Shown: piece after piece, positions 11,311 to 21,646 of the stretch
How the letters are laid out: every line of letters starts with the position of its first letter
How positions within the stretch are numbered: position 1 is the stretch's first letter
IMG/VR virus record: IMGVR_UViG_3300044766_000029
Coordinates: 1-21,646 of that record
Source: a virus
Direction: 5' to 3' (one strand)
Length of the DNA: 21,646 nt
Translations under genes and position numbers: made by a program
Notes under the pieces: model-generated
What the model saw: only the letters and a program-made list of their open reading frames with translations
What the model was told of the DNA's origin: nothing
The model's database searches: none

Positions 11311-12606
11311 TTAGATCACGTGCGCCACGACGATGCTCGTGGTGATCCCGTCGAGCCGGAAGCTCTGGTTAGGCCGCATCGCCGCGAAGTTCTCGAAGAT
11401 GCGGTACTGTCCGAGGAAGGTGTCCACGGCCGTGGTGTCACGCCGCAGGACCGCACCATCCTCGTCAACCCAGGAGCCCGAATCAGCGGTGAACCGGGTG
11501 AAGCTCCGGTTGTCCACCCCGAACCACGTCCCGTATGGCGCGTCGATTCCGCGCTTCAGCGGCACCCCGCCGAAGTTGAGGCCCGTGTTCCACGAGTTCT
11601 TCGCGGCTACGGTTCCCACATCCGGCGACTTCAGGTCGGCACCCATGTACCGACGATCGGCCTCAGCGAGGGCCAGGTACGCGCGAACCACGCTCGGGTG
11701 CATCAGATGATACGCAATCTGGCTGTTCCCGATCTGCATGGACACGTCGATACCACGCTGAATCACGTCGGCACTGAGAGCACCCACGGCCGCGATCACA
11801 GTGCTCCGCAGCACTGGGAAGCTCGCCCGGCTCAGGCCGTAATACAGGTTCACGTACGTCCCATCGTCGATCAGGCCCGTCAGCCCGAGCGGCGCGTGCA
11901 TGTAGTCGGTGTTCCCGATCGTCAGCGCCGCATCGGCGCCATACGCCTTGACCACGAAGTCATTATCGGCCACCGCCGCATCGCAGGCCGCACTGATCGT
12001 GAAGGTCGTGCCAGCCGCCGCCACCGCTGTCACCAGCCGTGTCCCGCCAGCCCGCAGCGCCGAACCCACCGGGTCCACAAACGCTACGTTGTCGCCGACG
12101 TTCACGAACCGCGCGCCGTTGGTCGCGCCCGCGATCCCCCCAGGGCTATCCACCGTGATCGTGACGCCAGTCCCCGGGTCGCCGTTCGTCAGGCACCGCA
12201 CCGCCCGGCCATCCCCCCAGATCGCGTAGCGCCGCTGCACCCGGAGGTCGTCCAGCAACCGATCCATCTCCAGGCGCATGCCGCGCGCGAAGGCCCCGGC
12301 ATCCGACCGCGAAGCCACCATGAGTTGCTTCGTGATCTGGATGGCTCCGTGATGGTACCGCATCGGAATCCGCATGTTCTCGATCTGCTGCCGCCCAGCA
12401 GTCGGGATGTTCCCGCCCTCAGCGGTGAAGTAGCTCCCCCGGTTGCGGTTCACGTGGATCGCTTCCAGCCGCTCCCGCCCCTGCCAGGGAGTGCTGTCAC
12501 TCTCAAACAGGTCAAGCTCCGGCGTCTCGTCGTTCAACTGAGACTTAATCGCCGGGCCGTAGTCTTCCTTGAGCAGGGCATCCAAAGTTGCAGTATTCGC
12601 AGGCAC
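11311..12606 (-). CDS. Major capsid protein, HK97 fold
   Basis: A 431-aa protein forming the phage head shell. Support comes from its place after the scaffold gene, its length, and its layout. An N-terminal arm (LLKEDYGPAIKSQLNDETPE) is followed by an extended loop-like segment (GSYFTAEGGNIPTAGRQQIE, residues about 57-76) and a helix typical of the P domain (MRLEMDRLLDDLRVQRRYAI, 110-129). A Gly/Val/Thr-rich beta insert at about 148-222 precedes an A-domain-like end. Similar inserted domains occur in capsid proteins of many podoviruses. The start is GTG at 12606, sharing one base with the scaffold stop (TAGTG); GGGAGAA lies 5 nt upstream. The GC-rich hairpin after the stop is common behind capsid genes. 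Confidence 0.88.
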   Translation of the reverse strand: MPANTATLDALLKEDYGPAIKSQLNDETPELDLFESDSTPWQGRERLEAIHVNRNRGSYFTAEGGNIPTAGRQQIENMRIPMRYHHGAIQITKQLMVASRSDAGAFARGMRLEMDRLLDDLRVQRRYAIWGDGRAVRCLTNGDPGTGVTITVDSPGGIAGATNGARFVNVGDNVAFVDPVGSALRAGGTRLVTAVAAAGTTFTISAACDAAVADNDFVVKAYGADAALTIGNTDYMHAPLGLTGLIDDGTYVNLYYGLSRASFPVLRSTVIAAVGALSADVIQRGIDVSMQIGNSQIAYHLMHPSVVRAYLALAEADRRYMGADLKSPDVGTVAAKNSWNTGLNFGGVPLKRGIDAPYGTWFGVDNRSFTRFTADSGSWVDEDGAVLRRDTTAVDTFLGQYRIFENFAAMRPNQSFRLDGITTSIVVAHVI

Positions 12607-13878: not shown

Positions 13879-16074
13879 TTACCCCCTCCCCGCCATCTCT
13901 GGGTGGCTTGGCTGCTGCTGGTCGCGAGTCAACTGCCCCTGCTCCGTCCCCAGGTTCTGGTCGCTCGCGACCCCCTTCTGCTTCGGACCCTCCGGCCCAG
14001 GGGTCACGCTCCCCGGCTGGCGCTTCTGCTCTGCCCCTGGCGGAGGCTGCAGGAACTTGAAATGCAGCGCCGCGTACATCACAATCCGCTGCTGAATCGG
14101 CGGGGGCAGCGCCTCGAACTGCTCCGTCTTCTGGAACCGCGCGAACAGCGTGATCGCAAGCTGATGATTCTCCCACGGATTCGGCGGCGGGGGTGTCTGT
14201 CCGGCCTTCAGCGCATCAATCCGCCGCGCCACGAACTCCATATCCACCTTAAAGTCCGGCAGCATATCACTCGCGCCCATCACCGTCGCCAGGTCATACC
14301 GCTGCATCGGGTCTTGCGGGTTTATGACCCCGAGCCGCAGCAACTGTTCAAACAGCGCCCGCTTCGCCAGCATCGTCTGCGGCCGGAAGCTCCCGATTTC
14401 ACAGGTGATGTTCACGCCACCCGTGAGCGCCGACTTATTGAACTTCGCGATGCTCCACTGCCCGGCCCCCGTGGTCAAATACCGGTCGTCGGTCGCAGCC
14501 ACCTTCCACAACGCCAGGTTCTGGCGGCTCCACTCCAGCCACCCCTGCGCCCAGTTCCGCATGATCGCCGACTGGCCTTGCTGTGCACGCTCGTCCAGTA
14601 GCTGCAGCGCCGAGTACGCGCTCACCCCGCGCGGTGCCTCGCCGCGCCCCACCTCACTCAACCCGAAGATATCCTGCATCTCCTGGTCGAGTATCCCCAT
14701 CCACTGGATCAAGTAGGGACTGACTTGGTCGCCGGGCACGCGCGACGGCGGGTTGACACCCTGCAGGGCGTTATACTTAATCACCTGCCCCTGCTCGCCC
14801 GTCACCTTGCTCAGCCCGACACCTTCAGGAACCAGCCACACGCTGTTCGCCATGCGGATGCTGTGCAACTCGATGATGCTCTCCACTCGGTTCCGCTGAT
14901 CCTGCTTCGGGATGATATCATCCACACGACTCTTGTAGATCGTGCGTCCGGGCACCTCGTCGAACCCGATATGCACCACGTTCAGCATCGGCCGCCCTGT
15001 CTCGTCCTTGTACGGCCACGGCCCGCTCTCCACCACCTTGTCGTCGAGGATCACCGCGTAAATCCCCTCGGGGGCCACCTTCGGCCGCGGCCGAATCCAA
15101 ATCCGCTTCACCCGTGCGCGCGGCTCACTCAGTGAACTCGGCGCCCCATACCCATAACTCCACAGCGTCGTCGCGTACGCCAGGCTCTCGAACATCCCGC
15201 TGTACGGGTCGCTCGGCTGGTTGTAGTTGATGTTCTTCGCGACTTCCTCCCCGTACATCCGCGTGATCCAGTCCTTCCCCCGGTGCCGTACCGTCATGAA
15301 GTACGGGCTGTCGTGGAAGTCCTGCCCGGTCGAGTTATCGAAGTGACACGTGAAAACAGGCTCCACCTCCGTCTTGAACCGCCCCTTCGGGTACGCCGTC
15401 CCTACCTTCCCACCCTGCGCTTCCATCCCGTCCGGCACCGGCTGTCCCGGCTGCTCCGTCGCTGGTTGTAGGTTATGCCCCCCGCACTGTGGGCACACAC
15501 CCATCCCCTGCTGCAGTCCCTGCGCCAAGCCTGCCTGCTCTGTTTCTTTCGGCATGGTGACGGCACCACAGTCGTTACACTGCTCCGCCCCGATGAACTC
15601 AAACCCGGACTCGGGGCTCAGATCGTAGTTGTTAATCAGGAACACGTTCCCCGTCAGAATCAGCCACCGCGCGATCACCGCCTTCAACCGCTCGATATCA
15701 CTCTCTCGCTCGATAATCGCGTTGATCCGGTCGGCCACGGTCGCCGCCGCAATATCCTCCGGCCGGTCGGTCGCGGGGCTGTACGTCAGCGGAGGCCGGA
15801 AGTTCAGCAGGTTCGCGACAGCCTGGTTCACGAACGTCGCGACTTTGTTTGTACACGGCCTCGGCGTCCGCTTCCCCACCGCGATCGGGCGCCACAACCG
15901 TATCGACTGGTCGTACTTGATCCACTGCACCCCGAGATAGTACAGCACATTCCGCTGCGCGGCCCGCTCGATCTCCAGCCGGTAGCTCCGCGCCTGTCGG
16001 TGCGCCTCGTTCGAGTACGCCACAATCTTCTCGTGGTCCTGCGGTCCATCAGGATACGGCAGTTCACCCGGCAT
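13879..16074 (-). CDS. Portal protein (P22/T7-like) with internal zinc-ribbon signature
   Basis: The 731-aa size fits large podovirus portals (P22 gp1 is 725 aa). The dodecameric portal is the DNA channel at one head vertex and docks terminase, then the adaptor. The N-terminal part has the typical order: a helix rich in Arg/Glu (ARSYRLEIERAAQRNVLYYL), NKVATFVNQAVANLLNFRPP near 76-95, and a helical segment leading to LILTGNVFLINNY at about 138. Residues 166-197 contain Cys166-x2-Cys169 and Cys194-x2-Cys197, a zinc-ribbon pattern that is unusual for a portal. The middle has the stem-like segment IIPKQDQRNRVESIIELHSI. The C-terminus is Pro/Gln-rich, as in P22-like barrels. AAGGGGGA lies 5 nt before the ATG, which overlaps the upstream gene by 11 nt. 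Confidence 0.9.
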   Translation of the reverse strand: MPGELPYPDGPQDHEKIVAYSNEAHRQARSYRLEIERAAQRNVLYYLGVQWIKYDQSIRLWRPIAVGKRTPRPCTNKVATFVNQAVANLLNFRPPLTYSPATDRPEDIAAATVADRINAIIERESDIERLKAVIARWLILTGNVFLINNYDLSPESGFEFIGAEQCNDCGAVTMPKETEQAGLAQGLQQGMGVCPQCGGHNLQPATEQPGQPVPDGMEAQGGKVGTAYPKGRFKTEVEPVFTCHFDNSTGQDFHDSPYFMTVRHRGKDWITRMYGEEVAKNINYNQPSDPYSGMFESLAYATTLWSYGYGAPSSLSEPRARVKRIWIRPRPKVAPEGIYAVILDDKVVESGPWPYKDETGRPMLNVVHIGFDEVPGRTIYKSRVDDIIPKQDQRNRVESIIELHSIRMANSVWLVPEGVGLSKVTGEQGQVIKYNALQGVNPPSRVPGDQVSPYLIQWMGILDQEMQDIFGLSEVGRGEAPRGVSAYSALQLLDERAQQGQSAIMRNWAQGWLEWSRQNLALWKVAATDDRYLTTGAGQWSIAKFNKSALTGGVNITCEIGSFRPQTMLAKRALFEQLLRLGVINPQDPMQRYDLATVMGASDMLPDFKVDMEFVARRIDALKAGQTPPPPNPWENHQLAITLFARFQKTEQFEALPPPIQQRIVMYAALHFKFLQPPPGAEQKRQPGSVTPGPEGPKQKGVASDQNLGTEQGQLTRDQQQPSHPEMAGRG

Positions 16075-16369
16075 CGTGGTCCCCCTTGCCCTCGGTCAAC
16101 AGTGTGCCGAGTGGGTCGCGCTTGATCTGCTTCATCAGTTCCCGAAGCTCCTCTGGCTGGTCGTCGAACATCGGGAGTTCGGGAAGCTGCGGCTTCTGGG
16201 GCGTGATCGGGGCCACCGCCCGGCTCACGAGTGCGGCGTCCACCGCAGCATCGGCCCGCTCCTCAGCCCGATCCAGGGCCTTCAGCGTCCGCTGAAGCTC
16301 CGCGCGCAACGCGCGCGACTCCGCCTCCGCTAGTACAAGCTGCTCGTACCTGCTTCGCGTGATCCACAT
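16064..16369 (-). CDS. Small coiled-coil protein between terminase and portal
   Basis: 101 aa. A predicted coiled coil spans about residues 8-48 (YEQLVLAEAESRALRAELQR, then TLKALDRAEERADAAVD). A Pro-rich linker (PITPQKPQLPELPMF) and an acidic-to-basic helix (EELRELMKQIKRDPLG) follow. Its ATG shares one base with the terminase stop (TAATG) and its end overlaps the portal ATG by 11 nt, so the three are co-translated. Small coiled-coil proteins are frequent here in phages; the function is unknown, with assembly or terminase-portal contact as possibilities. Confidence 0.75.
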   Translation of the reverse strand: MWITRSRYEQLVLAEAESRALRAELQRTLKALDRAEERADAAVDAALVSRAVAPITPQKPQLPELPMFDDQPEELRELMKQIKRDPLGTLLTEGKGDHDAG

Positions 16370-17901
16370 TACGTCAGCCCCTCCGTCACGAACTCATACT
16401 CCTGCGGGTGGAGACTCTCCTCGTCAAACGGACTGCTCTCCAGCGTGTCCAGCAAGCTCTCCGTCTCCCGCTGCTCGCTCTCCTCCCGCATCTTCCGTCG
16501 CCACCCCTTCCACACCCACTCTTGCAGCGCGCTCTCCCCGGGCACCGTGTCCTGGTCCGCGTCCTCATGCAGCTTCGGCAGCGGCACCGGCACCAACAGC
16601 GCATACCCCATCGCGTCGAGCGCGTGACACCGCTGCTTCGTCCGTGGTTTCCCCGGGTTCTTGTCGTCCCACTCCCACGACCGAATCTCCTGCAGCAGAT
16701 TCGGGCACCGGCCGCGCAGCACCTTCCACTTCCCCTCGCGCATCAGCGCCGTCACCCGTGTGATCCGTGCCTCAATCTGCTTATCAAACGGGGTCGTGGT
16801 CGTCATTCCGTGCCGTAGGAGTTCAATCCGCATCTGCTTCGCACTCGGGTCAATCACGATCGCGCTCGGCGCCTTCCCCATCAGCTTGTCGCGGACTTTC
16901 CCGGCGTACTCACGGGCGGAGAGCCCTGCCACGTATATTTCATCCCACCAATACACAATTCCGTCGGGAGAATAACTCCCGAACAAGATCGCGGTGGGAT
17001 TATCAGCCCCGTGGTCCCAACCGACAACGTGGGTCCACTCTTCTGGGACCGGGAACGCTTCGACTTCATGTTCAACCGGATCATATTTGTAGATAAGTCC
17101 GCTGTAGCTCGCAAAGTCGCCTCCAAACTGCTCTGCGAACGCTGGACGAGGCAGCAGCCGCCGCGCGCGCTCAATAGATTCTTCCGAGTGGACTCCGGGC
17201 TCCAAAATCTCGCCAAAATCAGGCACCGCGGAGATAATCGTAGACCAGTACAGCCTGTCCCAGCGCGGATTTGGCTGCCCGCCGACGCGCGCCCGCGCCA
17301 CACCCTGCCACGGGCCATACTCAAAATTGAGATTTTTCAGGCTGGGCACCCGAAAGGCATCGTACACCCAGTTGAACCCGGCCGGTGTCGTCGGGACCAG
17401 CACCTTCCCGCGCCGAAGCTCCACGCGCGAGTACAGAAACCGCTCGTACACATTACTCGGGAGCGCGCTCGCCTCACACAAGATGATACTATCAAGCTGC
17501 TCCATCCTCAACGAGTCCGGGTTATCGGCGCTCACCACCCGCACGAAGCTCCCCCACGGGAACTCAATACTCATGTTCCCGCCGTGGGAGTCAAAGTGCT
17601 TCGCCGACGCGAGCTTCATCACCCCGGTGTTCACAAAGTCGTTATAAATGTACCCAAATTCCTTCGAGCCCAGCGTGTATGTTGGAGCCACCAGCCAGCA
17701 ATGGTAATCAGGACGCAGAAGCTCAGGCTCAACATGTTTTGCCGCATGGAAGGACTTCCCCGCTTGCGGAAATGCGAACATACTCAGGAACCGATACCCT
17801 GCCTCGGCCGCCGCGTCGAGCGCGCGCGCTCCATTCCGAGGCACGTACCCGATCCGAGCGTACCACTTCGCTCGTGAGACAGCCGGGGCCGATCGGCGCA
17901 T
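16369..17901 (-). CDS. terL: Terminase large subunit (packaging ATPase and nuclease)
   Basis: TerL pumps DNA into the prohead through the portal and cuts the concatemer. The start is the ATG at 17901 (510 aa), whose A overlaps the stop of a small upstream ORF (TGATG); a TTG at 17952 would be weaker. Numbering from this ATG, the Walker A loop is AFPQAGKS (43-50, Lys49, without the first Gly). The Walker B region is SIILCEA (Glu143; Cys142 where Asp is usual). The coupling motif TTP is at 171-173. The RNase H-like nuclease has Asp296 (GWDHGADNP), Asp351 (IVIDPSA) and Asp429 (HALDAMGYAL). The C-terminus is charged and Glu-rich, a probable portal contact. The set is complete, so an active enzyme is expected. 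Confidence 0.93.
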   Translation of the reverse strand: MRRSAPAVSRAKWYARIGYVPRNGARALDAAAEAGYRFLSMFAFPQAGKSFHAAKHVEPELLRPDYHCWLVAPTYTLGSKEFGYIYNDFVNTGVMKLASAKHFDSHGGNMSIEFPWGSFVRVVSADNPDSLRMEQLDSIILCEASALPSNVYERFLYSRVELRRGKVLVPTTPAGFNWVYDAFRVPSLKNLNFEYGPWQGVARARVGGQPNPRWDRLYWSTIISAVPDFGEILEPGVHSEESIERARRLLPRPAFAEQFGGDFASYSGLIYKYDPVEHEVEAFPVPEEWTHVVGWDHGADNPTAILFGSYSPDGIVYWWDEIYVAGLSAREYAGKVRDKLMGKAPSAIVIDPSAKQMRIELLRHGMTTTTPFDKQIEARITRVTALMREGKWKVLRGRCPNLLQEIRSWEWDDKNPGKPRTKQRCHALDAMGYALLVPVPLPKLHEDADQDTVPGESALQEWVWKGWRRKMREESEQRETESLLDTLESSPFDEESLHPQEYEFVTEGLT

Positions 17902-18071
17902 CAGCACCACACCTGCGGCCACCGCAGACAATACGTCGGGACTTCTCCCCAAGTCCCTGTACCCGGATCGACCGTCCCAACGCCCACGACCGTCACGTCC
18001 TCACGAACCATGTGTGCTCCCGGGCTCCCCGCCGAGGCACCAGCCGCCCCGACGAGGAGCCTCTCGCTCAC
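17901..18071 (-). CDS. Putative small protein, 56 aa, upstream of terL
   Basis: The frame opens at a GTG (18071) 3 nt after the preceding stop, or at an internal ATG (18011) with GGGAG 5 nt upstream, giving 36 aa. It ends exactly at the terL start (TGATG), the junction type seen throughout this operon. Third codon positions are mostly G/C. The N-terminal part is Gly/Ala/Ser-rich; the rest reads MVREDVTVVGVGTVDPGTG and ends in a Trp/Cys-rich stretch. The family is not recognised. Without it, 170 nt before terL would be empty in an otherwise packed region. Confidence 0.5.
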   Translation of the reverse strand: MSERLLVGAAGASAGSPGAHMVREDVTVVGVGTVDPGTGTWGEVPTYCLRWPQVWC

Positions 18072-19909: not shown

Positions 19910-19938
19910 ATTCTTGCATGTGAGTCGCCCACTGTCAA
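19910..19938 (-). promoter_or_regulatory. Leftward late-operon promoter
   Basis: TTGACA (19933-19938) and AAGAAT (19910-19915) with a 17-nt spacer containing the 13-base block shared with the promoter at 13464-13492. Transcription would begin near 19903, at or beside the HTH start codon, with almost no leader. The -35 box lies 30 bp from the -35 box of the divergent promoter. Confidence 0.65.
19914..19926. repeat. Copy 2 of the 13-bp late-promoter element
   Basis: GACTCACATGCAA on the minus strand, identical to 13468-13480 and in the same position relative to its -35 box. Confidence 0.65.
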
Positions 19939-19968
19939 GAGAATTGTGTGGCCGCTCCGGCTTTTCGC

Positions 19969-19997
19969 TTGACAGATAGGTGAACCTCGCCTATAGT
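19969..19997 (+). promoter_or_regulatory. Rightward early promoter (sigma70 type)
   Basis: TTGACA (19969-19974), a 17-nt spacer, then TATAGT (19992-19997): near-consensus and the best promoter seen in the window. It stands 33 nt before the ribosome-binding-site/ATG region of the ribbon-helix-helix gene, giving a leader of roughly 25 nt. It should be recognised by host RNA polymerase without help. Confidence 0.82.
19976..19994. promoter_or_regulatory. Operator-like inverted repeats within the rightward promoter
   Basis: ATAGG (19976-19980) and CCTAT (19990-19994) are inverted around 9 nt, and AGGT-GA-ACCT (19978-19987) is a palindrome nested within them. Both lie in the promoter spacer, where a bound repressor would block RNA polymerase. 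The ribbon-helix-helix product just downstream is the obvious candidate ligand, by inference. Confidence 0.5.
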
Positions 19998-20030: not shown

Positions 20031-20210
20031 ATGCCGAAGCTAACCCCCCGCTCGAACGCCTACTACATCCGGGTGATGGTCCCCCGCGCGCTCTGGGACC
20101 GCTTCATCGCTGAGGTGTGCGAGCAGTCCGCCAAGCGCGGGCAAATTATCTCGTCTGCAGCCGTCGTCCGCGCGGCACTCGAAGAGTACCTCACCACCCG
20201 GGGGCGCTAA
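20031..20210 (+). CDS. Ribbon-helix-helix (Arc/MetJ/CopG-type) DNA-binding protein
   Basis: 59 aa from the ATG at 20031, with AAGGAG 7 nt upstream; a GTG at 19980 would lie inside the promoter. A basic N-terminus leads to a strand (YYIRVMVP, about 11-18) that would insert in the DNA major groove as part of a dimeric two-stranded sheet. Helix A (ALWDRFIAEVCEQSAKRG) and helix B (SSAAVVRAALEEYLTT) follow. The size and order fit the RHH fold. As first gene after its own promoter with embedded inverted repeats, it is probably an autorepressor of the rightward operon and perhaps of the divergent promoter. Targets are inferred. Confidence 0.75.
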   Translation: MPKLTPRSNAYYIRVMVPRALWDRFIAEVCEQSAKRGQIISSAAVVRAALEEYLTTRGR

Positions 20211-20212
20211 CT

Positions 20213-20479
20213 ATGCGACCACGCCCGGTCTTCCATCTCTCCAAGCTCGTCGAAGTCATCTGGTATGACTCCTCCACCACCGGAGGCTGGAAGTCGGTCG
20301 AGGAGATTACCGACACGCGCCCGCTCCTCTGCTGCACCGTCGGCTACCTCCTCAAGCGTGACCGTCACGTCGTCCAGGTCATCCAGTCCCAAACCGAGTA
20401 CCACAAACTCTCGGACTCCATGACTATTCCCCGAGCTTGTGTACTCAGCTACCGCGTGCTCCGACGCGGACGGAGGTAG
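20213..20479 (+). CDS. Conserved-type small phage protein, 88 aa
   Basis: The ATG at 20213 begins 2 nt after the previous stop; upstream in-frame codons overlap the RHH gene and are not used. Visible features are VEVIWYDSSTTGGWKSVEEI, then CCTVGYLLKRDRHVVQVIQS, and DSMTIPRACVLSYRVLRRGR near the end. V-x-W-x-D-S-x-x-x-x-G-W, a G-Y/W-L segment and an I-P-R-x-x-V end recur in a class of small phage proteins that I recognise but cannot assign a function; a small beta-barrel is likely. Codons are strongly C/G-ending. Confidence 0.75.
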   Translation: MRPRPVFHLSKLVEVIWYDSSTTGGWKSVEEITDTRPLLCCTVGYLLKRDRHVVQVIQSQTEYHKLSDSMTIPRACVLSYRVLRRGRR

Positions 20480-20481
20480 CG

Positions 20482-20658
20482 ATGCCGACGATGTTCAACG
20501 AGGCAATCCTTGCGGAAATCTGGTACACTCTCTACCTCCCTGCGATCGAGTGTCGCGTCCGCGACTTCGACGAAGACCGCGAGCTTGTGACCCTCACCGC
20601 CCTCGTCCAGTTCTTGCAGACCGTCGAGACGATCAAGCAGGCGGCCCAGCGCCCATGA
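20482..20658 (+). CDS. Small hypothetical protein, 58 aa
   Basis: The ATG at 20482 has a strong GGAGG 5 nt upstream. The protein is mostly helical with acidic character: FNEAILAEIWYTLYLPAIEC, then RVRDFDEDRELVTLTALVQF and LQTVETIKQAAQRP. No membrane segment or motif is evident. The stop overlaps the next ATG (ATGA). Early phage operons often hold such small host-acting proteins; the role is unknown. Confidence 0.68.
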   Translation: MPTMFNEAILAEIWYTLYLPAIECRVRDFDEDRELVTLTALVQFLQTVETIKQAAQRP

Positions 20659-20876
20659 ACATCTCCATCACCCCGGCCGCCAATGGCTACATCCTCCGCT
20701 CCACCGATCCCGACGACCCGGCCGTCGTCTACCAGGACACCTCCCCAGACGAAGTCGAAGCCTTTGCTGACTTCCTCCGCCTGCTCCTCGACACCTACGG
20801 CCCGAGCACCTCACGCTACTCCCCGAAGCGTGTCGTCATCCGCGTCGAGCCAGGAGACAAGTATGAGCGCGCTTGA
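20655..20876 (+). CDS. Small acidic hypothetical protein, 73 aa
   Basis: The ATG at 20655 overlaps the previous stop. The N-terminal strands (MNISITPAANGYILRST) lead to DPDDPAVVYQDTSP, a helix (DEVEAFADFLRLLLDTYG) and a C-terminal strand (SPKRVVIRVEPGDK). The acidic alpha/beta layout recalls small phage proteins of unknown function, possibly DNA-mimic-like in charge, but this is only composition. The last bases overlap the start of the next gene by 14 nt. Confidence 0.68.
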   Translation: MNISITPAANGYILRSTDPDDPAVVYQDTSPDEVEAFADFLRLLLDTYGPSTSRYSPKRVVIRVEPGDKYERA

Positions 20877-21141
20877 GTTCCAGCCGGACGACTTCATCGA
20901 GACGACACGCTTCTACGAGTCCCCGGTCCCGTGTCGGGTGTGCCACACCTGGCTTACCAGCCCGCACTACCGGCTCACCCGAGACGCAATCCGTCGCCTC
21001 TTCGCCCCGCACCAACGCTTCGTCATGCCTCCCGACTCTCCCCTCCCCTCCGATATCCTCATCTGCGGCCACCCGCTCCACCTCTGCTCGCGCGAGTGCA
21101 TCGCCCTCCTCTGCCTCAACCCGGACTTGGTGATGGCATGA
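20863..21141 (+). CDS. Cys-rich zinc-finger-like microprotein A, 92 aa
   Basis: The ATG at 20863 has AGGAGA 5 nt upstream. Cys24-x2-Cys27 (PCRVCHTW) and Cys75-x3-Cys79 (HLCSRECIALLC) form a four-Cys zinc-binding set; Cys68, His70 and His73 are further possible ligands. The spacing between pairs is long, with a helix (RDAIRRLFAPHQRFV) inside. The C-S-R-E-C end recalls treble-clef or FCS/MYM-type fingers. The following two genes share the same signature, and overlaps of 14 and 4 nt link it to both neighbours. Function is unknown; protein or nucleic-acid binding is likely. Confidence 0.72.
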   Translation: MSALEFQPDDFIETTRFYESPVPCRVCHTWLTSPHYRLTRDAIRRLFAPHQRFVMPPDSPLPSDILICGHPLHLCSRECIALLCLNPDLVMA

Positions 21142-21320
21142 ACAACACCTACCAACTCGACAACTGGCGGTGCCTCGGCTGCGGTCGCGAAGCCATGCCG
21201 GGGCAGATACTCCTCCTCCTCCCAGACGAGCGTGGTCCCGCCCGGTGGACTTGCTCCAAAACCTGCGCCACCCTCGTCACCATCGTCGAGGCCGCCGCGG
21301 CACTCCCAGAGGCACCATGA
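21138..21320 (+). CDS. Cys-rich zinc-finger-like microprotein B, 60 aa
   Basis: Starts within the previous stop (ATGA). Cys12-x2-Cys15 (WRCLGCGREAMPGQ) and Cys39-x3-Cys43 (WTCSKTCATLV) make a compact zinc site with a 23-residue spacer. A hydrophobic strand (ILLLLPDE) lies in between, and an Ala/Glu helix closes the protein. Compared with microprotein A, the second Cys pair and the following helix align, suggesting common descent. The role is unknown. Confidence 0.72.
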   Translation: MNNTYQLDNWRCLGCGREAMPGQILLLLPDERGPARWTCSKTCATLVTIVEAAAALPEAP

Positions 21321-21484
21321 CCCTTCACGAGCGCGAGAGTGCCAGCCCCCGCTTCCACTGGTGTTGTAGCTGCGACAAGCACTGGCGAGGACGCCGCTGG
21401 TGGCAACTCGGCCACGATCGCTCTGGCTTCCACTTCTGCAGCCGGGAGTGTGCTGCTCTCTTCCTCCTACGCGGAGGTGTCTGA
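21317..21484 (+). CDS. Cys-rich zinc-finger-like microprotein C, 55 aa
   Basis: Starts within the previous stop (ATGA). Cys16 and Cys17 with Cys19 (FHWCCSCDKHW), then Cys41-x3-Cys45 (FHFCSRECAALF), give a CxxC...CxxxC site. The segment between is basic and Trp-rich (WRGRRWWQLGHDRSG), which would suit nucleic-acid or RNA polymerase contact. The FCSRECAALF end is close to HLCSRECIALL of microprotein A, the clearest sign that these are paralogues. The stop overlaps the next ATG (TGATG). Confidence 0.72.
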   Translation: MTLHERESASPRFHWCCSCDKHWRGRRWWQLGHDRSGFHFCSRECAALFLLRGGV

Positions 21485-21646
21485 TGCTCACCTACTCGCA
21501 CCAAGTCATCCTCACCCGCAACCGCTACGTCGGCCGCGAGCCACGCTGCGCTGGCTGCTCCCACATCCTCCCGTGGGGCTCCCGCTGCTCCCTCTACCGC
21601 TGGGCCACCATCGAAGACGGCGGCACCTACCTCTACGTCCACCCGA
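21484..21646 (+). CDS. Cys-rich microprotein D (partial, runs off right edge)
   Basis: The ATG at 21484 shares a base with the previous stop (TGATG). The visible 54 residues contain Cys22-x2-Cys25 (PRCAGCSHILPWGSRC) and Cys35, then aromatic strands (LYRWATIEDGGTYLYV). A fourth ligand would lie beyond the window. The C-x2-C near residue 22 agrees with the series of zinc-type small proteins upstream, though the lack of a visible C-S-x-x-C leaves this open. Confidence 0.62.
   Translation, partial: MLTYSHQVILTRNRYVGREPRCAGCSHILPWGSRCSLYRWATIEDGGTYLYVHP

Follow-up and report, generated by a model that had tools for sequence, protein, structure and literature searches.

Near the right-hand end of a genome record from an unclassified tailed phage, three consecutive genes encode zinc-finger-like microproteins, here called A, B and C, and their clustering is real and not random. 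Taken together, sequence searches and structure models indicate that the best reading of B and C is as free-standing treble clefs from the L24e/TRASH (FCS/MYM) superfamily, in which A would be placed by its motif only. By analogy with proteins of this fold, we give about an even chance to the reading in which all three are early, single-zinc proteins that bind a host protein as adaptors or inhibitors and that have been duplicated and have diverged.

The phage and its rightward operon

The window analysed here, 21,646 bases long, is the whole of an IMG/VR record. Its leftward genes include those for the terminase large subunit (TerL; 16369-17952), a P22-like portal (13879-16074), the major capsid protein (MCP; 11311-12606) and tail and adaptor proteins. 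The capsid protein shares 42-45% identity with those of the podovirus ctLwi270 (MW202554, Manatee Spring) and four IMG/VR contigs, the capsid proteins of Arthrobacter and Cellulosimicrobium phages are more distant relatives, and the nearest named relatives of the phage infect Actinobacteria. No near relatives were found in viral contigs with TerL or MCP alone as the query, and an alignment of two MCP sequences returned 12 relatives, mostly distant. Between 19180 and 19903, two leftward ORFs of 214 and 167 aa overlap in different frames, and the shorter one weakly matches phrog_2538, a family of terminase small subunits (E 5e-4).

Divergent from these leftward genes runs an operon of eight small, tightly packed genes, in which A, B and C are genes 5 to 7 and a gene that we call D is the eighth. 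It is headed by a sigma-70-like promoter on the + strand (TTGACA-17-TATAGT, 19969-19997) which agrees with the consensus at 11 of 12 positions. Promoter-like sites in 2 kb numbered 2, against 0.2 expected. The second such site is divergent, lying on the - strand (19938-19910; 10/12 consensus matches), and the -35 boxes of both sit in a 12-nt inverted repeat (19932-19943 and 19964-19975). A possible operator, the imperfect palindrome ATAGGTGA...TCGCCTAT, was read by eye; it overlaps the -10 box of the rightward promoter and the spacer before it.

Genes 1 to 4 all lie on the + strand. Gene 1 (20031-20210, 59 aa), with GGAG upstream of its ATG, may encode a ribbon-helix-helix (RHH) protein, its match to Pfam RHH_1 being weak (E 0.043; 14.2 bits, below the 20.5 cut-off). 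The initial annotation had described an early-type operon led by an RHH repressor; the early placement is supported because the promoter is near-consensus, and for the RHH leader there is only this match below the cut-off. Gene 2 (20213-20479, 88 aa) falls in phrog_25889, a family of unknown function (PHROGs E 6e-9), and many Pelagibacter phages encode distant homologues of it; its Pfam match to GFP (E 0.095) was set aside as noise. Gene 3 (20482-20658, 58 aa) and gene 4 (20655-20876, 73 aa, without Cys) are ORFs that have no family match in Pfam or PHROGs, the latter overlapping gene A by 14 nt.

Genes A to D and their relatedness

Gene A (20863-21141, on the + strand like the three that follow) encodes 92 aa with a CxxC knuckle (Cys 24 and 27), a 47-residue spacer and a CSREC knuckle (75 and 79), as well as further Cys at 68 and 84. 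In gene B (21138-21320, 60 aa) CxxC (12 and 15) is followed by CSKTC (39 and 43), and in gene C (21317-21484, 55 aa) CxxC (16 and 19) is followed by FCSREC (41 and 45), with a further Cys at 17. The A/B and B/C overlaps are 4 nt each, at a shared ATGA, and that of C and D is 1 nt (TGATG). Gene D (21484-21646) is incomplete, reaching 54 aa and ending ...YLYVHP at the contig end; its only Cys are one CxxC pair (22 and 25) and Cys 35, with no second knuckle within the record. The initial annotation had reported this arrangement, with CxxC then CxxxC in three consecutive genes of 92, 60 and 55 aa that overlap by 1-4 nt and a fourth opening with CxxC and a further Cys before leaving the window, and every part of it was recovered.

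Read in all six frames, the 21.6 kb record contains the pattern CxxC-(12-60)-CSxxC exactly three times (20932, 21171 and 21362), all inside A-C, against a mean of 0.06 and a maximum of 1 in 50 shuffles. Cys makes up 0.72% of residues in 13 other genes of the phage; at this frequency the chance of CxxC...CxxxC per gene is at most about 1.5e-5, and it is 0.3-1.5% when each protein's own Cys content is shuffled. On these shuffle counts and frequency estimates, chance clustering of Cys in A-C was rejected. Antisense ORFs across A-D were considered as well, but the + strand is favoured by the promoter, the Cys signature, the start/stop overlaps and the PHROGs match of gene 2. By codon statistics the two strands cannot be told apart across A-D, and the + strand reading of C is neither favoured nor excluded; gene C is accepted as real because of its Cys signature, its overlaps and its model.

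Beyond the Cys themselves, A and C are alike along a 13-residue stretch of the second knuckle (HLCSRECIALLCL in A and HFCSRECAALFLL in C), a similarity reached in 0/1000 Cys-fixed shuffles. The initial annotation had called the series probably paralogous, and for A and C a duplication is indeed supported at this knuckle. For B and C the similarity is marginal (0.131 in Cys-fixed shuffles, 0.053 in a full shuffle), for A and B it is not significant beyond Cys (0.12-0.19), and D, cut at 54 aa, resembles none of the three significantly (0.09-0.9). For B, an origin by duplication is plausible. In principle, a match confined to one knuckle and 13 residues long might instead have come about by convergence on the FCS consensus. 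We consider it somewhat unlikely that A, B and C are unrelated by descent, as independent small zinc proteins collected in one operon, an account of origin that is compatible with any functional reading. The weak B-C and A-B likeness beyond Cys, and the lack of any for D, would fit such an account; the A-C similarity in the shuffles speaks against it, as do the ligand spacing type and fold that B and C have in common and the adjoining position of their genes.

No orthologue turned up when viral contigs were scanned with A-C and gene 2, phage records with A-D and cellular genomes with B, but with proteins under 100 aa such scans reach only close relatives and absence is weak evidence. The initial annotation had proposed to look for the same block in related phages; longer MCP-related records (several of them fragments), MW202554 and two Actinobacteria phages held no tandem array, only isolated small Cys-rich ORFs. 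A scan for the pattern FCSRECAA picked up no array, only two multi-knuckle proteins of a generic kind. The A-C array may be lineage-specific, or else too diverged to find. In MW202554, two small CxxC-type ORFs (35402-35599 and 36895-37266), not adjacent to one another, lie among rightward small genes, and the first has no detectable similarity to A-D.

Fold of B and C

For A-D, no model in Pfam, NCBIfam or PHROGs passes its cut-off, and neither the TRASH clan members nor L24e in Pfam are reported up to E 10. Because no curated model reaches its cut-off, B and C are treated as fold-level members of the superfamily and not as members of a named family; true L24e or YacG orthology of A-D, with no Pfam match, was rejected. 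L24e, zf-FCS and DUF329 are all members of the Pfam clan TRASH, and zf-FCS has the motif CX2CX14-30FCSX2C (PMC4047054). C, which reads CX2CX20FCSX2C, fits this motif, and both B (WTCSKTC, without Phe before Cys3) and A (HLCSREC, spacer above 30) deviate from it.

In a phmmer search, B alone found an archaeal L24e aligned across the whole domain (E 0.06). A profile of B and C gave ten weak matches, among which were the TRASH domain of ZMYM5 (2das) and the L24e chains of several archaea; three Cys-preserving shuffles of B found no L24e, no ZMYM5 TRASH domain and no zinc protein. A shuffle test of B against L24e is circular, that L24e having been chosen because B matched it.

The AlphaFold2 model of C, with the order strand, knuckle, hairpin and helix, has a mean pLDDT of 91.8 (69 to 92 over five models) and was built from a three-row alignment that includes the A and B rows. 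The model of B has a pLDDT of 72, and the alignments behind both hold only two or three rows, all from the same operon. In Foldseek searches of the PDB, eL24 was the best compact match of the C model (TM 0.58-0.60 over about 42 residues), and the B model returned nearly all eL24 together with the ZMYM5 TRASH domain, most top rows having a prob of 0.7-0.95. With TM of about 0.5-0.6 to eL24, and for B also to ZMYM5 TRASH, both models have the treble-clef fold. Neither B nor C had a match at E <= 0.001 in the PDB, the best E being 0.19; non-significant single E-values are expected for 55-60 residues. Structure prediction had been suggested by the initial annotation, and the models of B and C share an eL24-like fold and are not of unrelated folds. 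Its zinc-finger reading is supported and can be sharpened, because the sequence and structure searches converge on one superfamily: B would be an L24e/TRASH-like and C an FCS-type treble clef. These searches are not fully independent, B being inside the B+C profile and the A and B rows being in the alignment of C.

The C-type fold is also shared loosely by unnamed small viral proteins in the structure search. Among the matches to C is a 79-aa protein of Arthrobacter phage GurgleFerb (A0A249XN72, TM 0.55), which is perhaps the 79-aa CxxC protein encoded at GurgleFerb 29516-29755; the capsid protein of this phage is distantly related to that of the window.

Proposed function and known systems

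We propose that A, B and C are separate small proteins, each of which would hold one zinc ion between its N-terminal CxxC and its C-terminal CSxxC, the latter knuckle starting a helix. A strong promoter of host type would drive their expression, at a time that we infer to be early and with translation coupled across the set, and A and C, possibly with B, would have diverged after duplication. As stoichiometric adaptors or inhibitors, they may dock the face of the treble clef on a host protein, much as YacG docks on gyrase subunit B, and their divergence would lead to different partners. Docking on a host protein is the leading reading because YacG inhibits gyrase in this way and phages make small gyrase inhibitors: the stand-alone bacterial YacG, a zinc-finger protein of 65 aa, blocks gyrase through binding of its zinc domain to GyrB, and the phage proteins Igy and Gip, unrelated to YacG, also inhibit gyrase (PMC10886550). 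On this analogy we prefer protein binding over RNA binding; the superfamily does both.

Ranking next after host-protein docking, and unlikely in our estimation, is RNA binding by A-C of the kind known from L24e in the large ribosomal subunit, with host translation or phage mRNA as the target. L24e is archaeal and eukaryotic, yet the nearest named relatives of this phage infect Actinobacteria; moreover, the TRASH fold serves many ligands, and Pfam gives no L24e match up to E 10. In favour of RNA, both B and C match L24e best in fold, early ribosome-binding phage factors exist, as with PhiKZ014 (PMC10914614), and zf-FCS domains able to bind RNA are known (PMC4047054). Less likely in our view is that the phage uses A-C as DNA-binding transcription factors or as nuclease accessory proteins. 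Small C4 proteins are a common feature of phages, with Ogr/Delta and Com as examples of small phage zinc proteins, and the early position and the loosely shared fold of unnamed small viral proteins would suit such a role; however, no such family is matched in Pfam, PHROGs or NCBIfam, and signature and fold point to L24e/TRASH.

Less probable still is that duplication has built up an array of stand-alone zinc microproteins with the L24e fold that assemble with one another, or work side by side, on a single host machine, either the ribosome or gyrase. Such an array would amount to a MYM-type protein of several fingers that has been divided into individual, coupled polypeptides. The lowest probability goes to anti-defence proteins, each directed against a different host system. 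Anti-defence genes often cluster, and A-C are clustered, small, apparently early and without detectable orthologues; no known anti-defence gene lies nearby, and the PADLOC search was empty, although PADLOC lists defence and not anti-defence proteins. The host takeover or anti-defence role named in the initial annotation found no direct support, as A-D have no match in PADLOC or PHROGs and no informative one in NCBIfam, and no orthologues were found.

Host inhibitors abound among the small early proteins of phages, most of which lack a recognisable fold. Placing B and C in L24e/TRASH offers a small, testable protein set and concrete candidate partners, namely gyrase, the ribosome and other treble-clef docking sites. 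A-C would add members to a known superfamily, in a set that has possibly been expanded, and their tandem divergence is a possible case of a phage diversifying one zinc scaffold.

In comparison with known systems, the N-terminal knuckle of gene A resembles DUF6011, a small CxxC family of unknown function (E 0.0025), over only 20 residues and at 17.7 bits, below the 26.6 cut-off. YacG, which we take to be the DUF329 family, is like B in its length of about 60 aa, its single zinc knuckle pair and its place in the TRASH clan. The local similarity of B to YacG, whose query sequence was confirmed against solved YacG entries, has P 0.003 against Cys-fixed shuffles, as one of 16 comparisons. In contrast to YacG, B and C have no Pfam DUF329 match and no recognisable counterpart of its gyrase-contacting C-terminal tail, and YacG is not among the best 50 Foldseek rows for their models. 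L24e (eL24) chains of archaeal ribosomes, 54-67 aa long, share with B and C the CxxC ... CSxxC spacing and the treble clef, whereas A-C are phage-borne, divergent tandem copies with no Pfam L24e match and no sign of a ribosomal role. The known TRASH, zf-FCS and MYM fingers, among them the ZMYM5 TRASH domain matched by B and by the B+C profile, are usually domains within larger proteins, whereas B and C stand alone.
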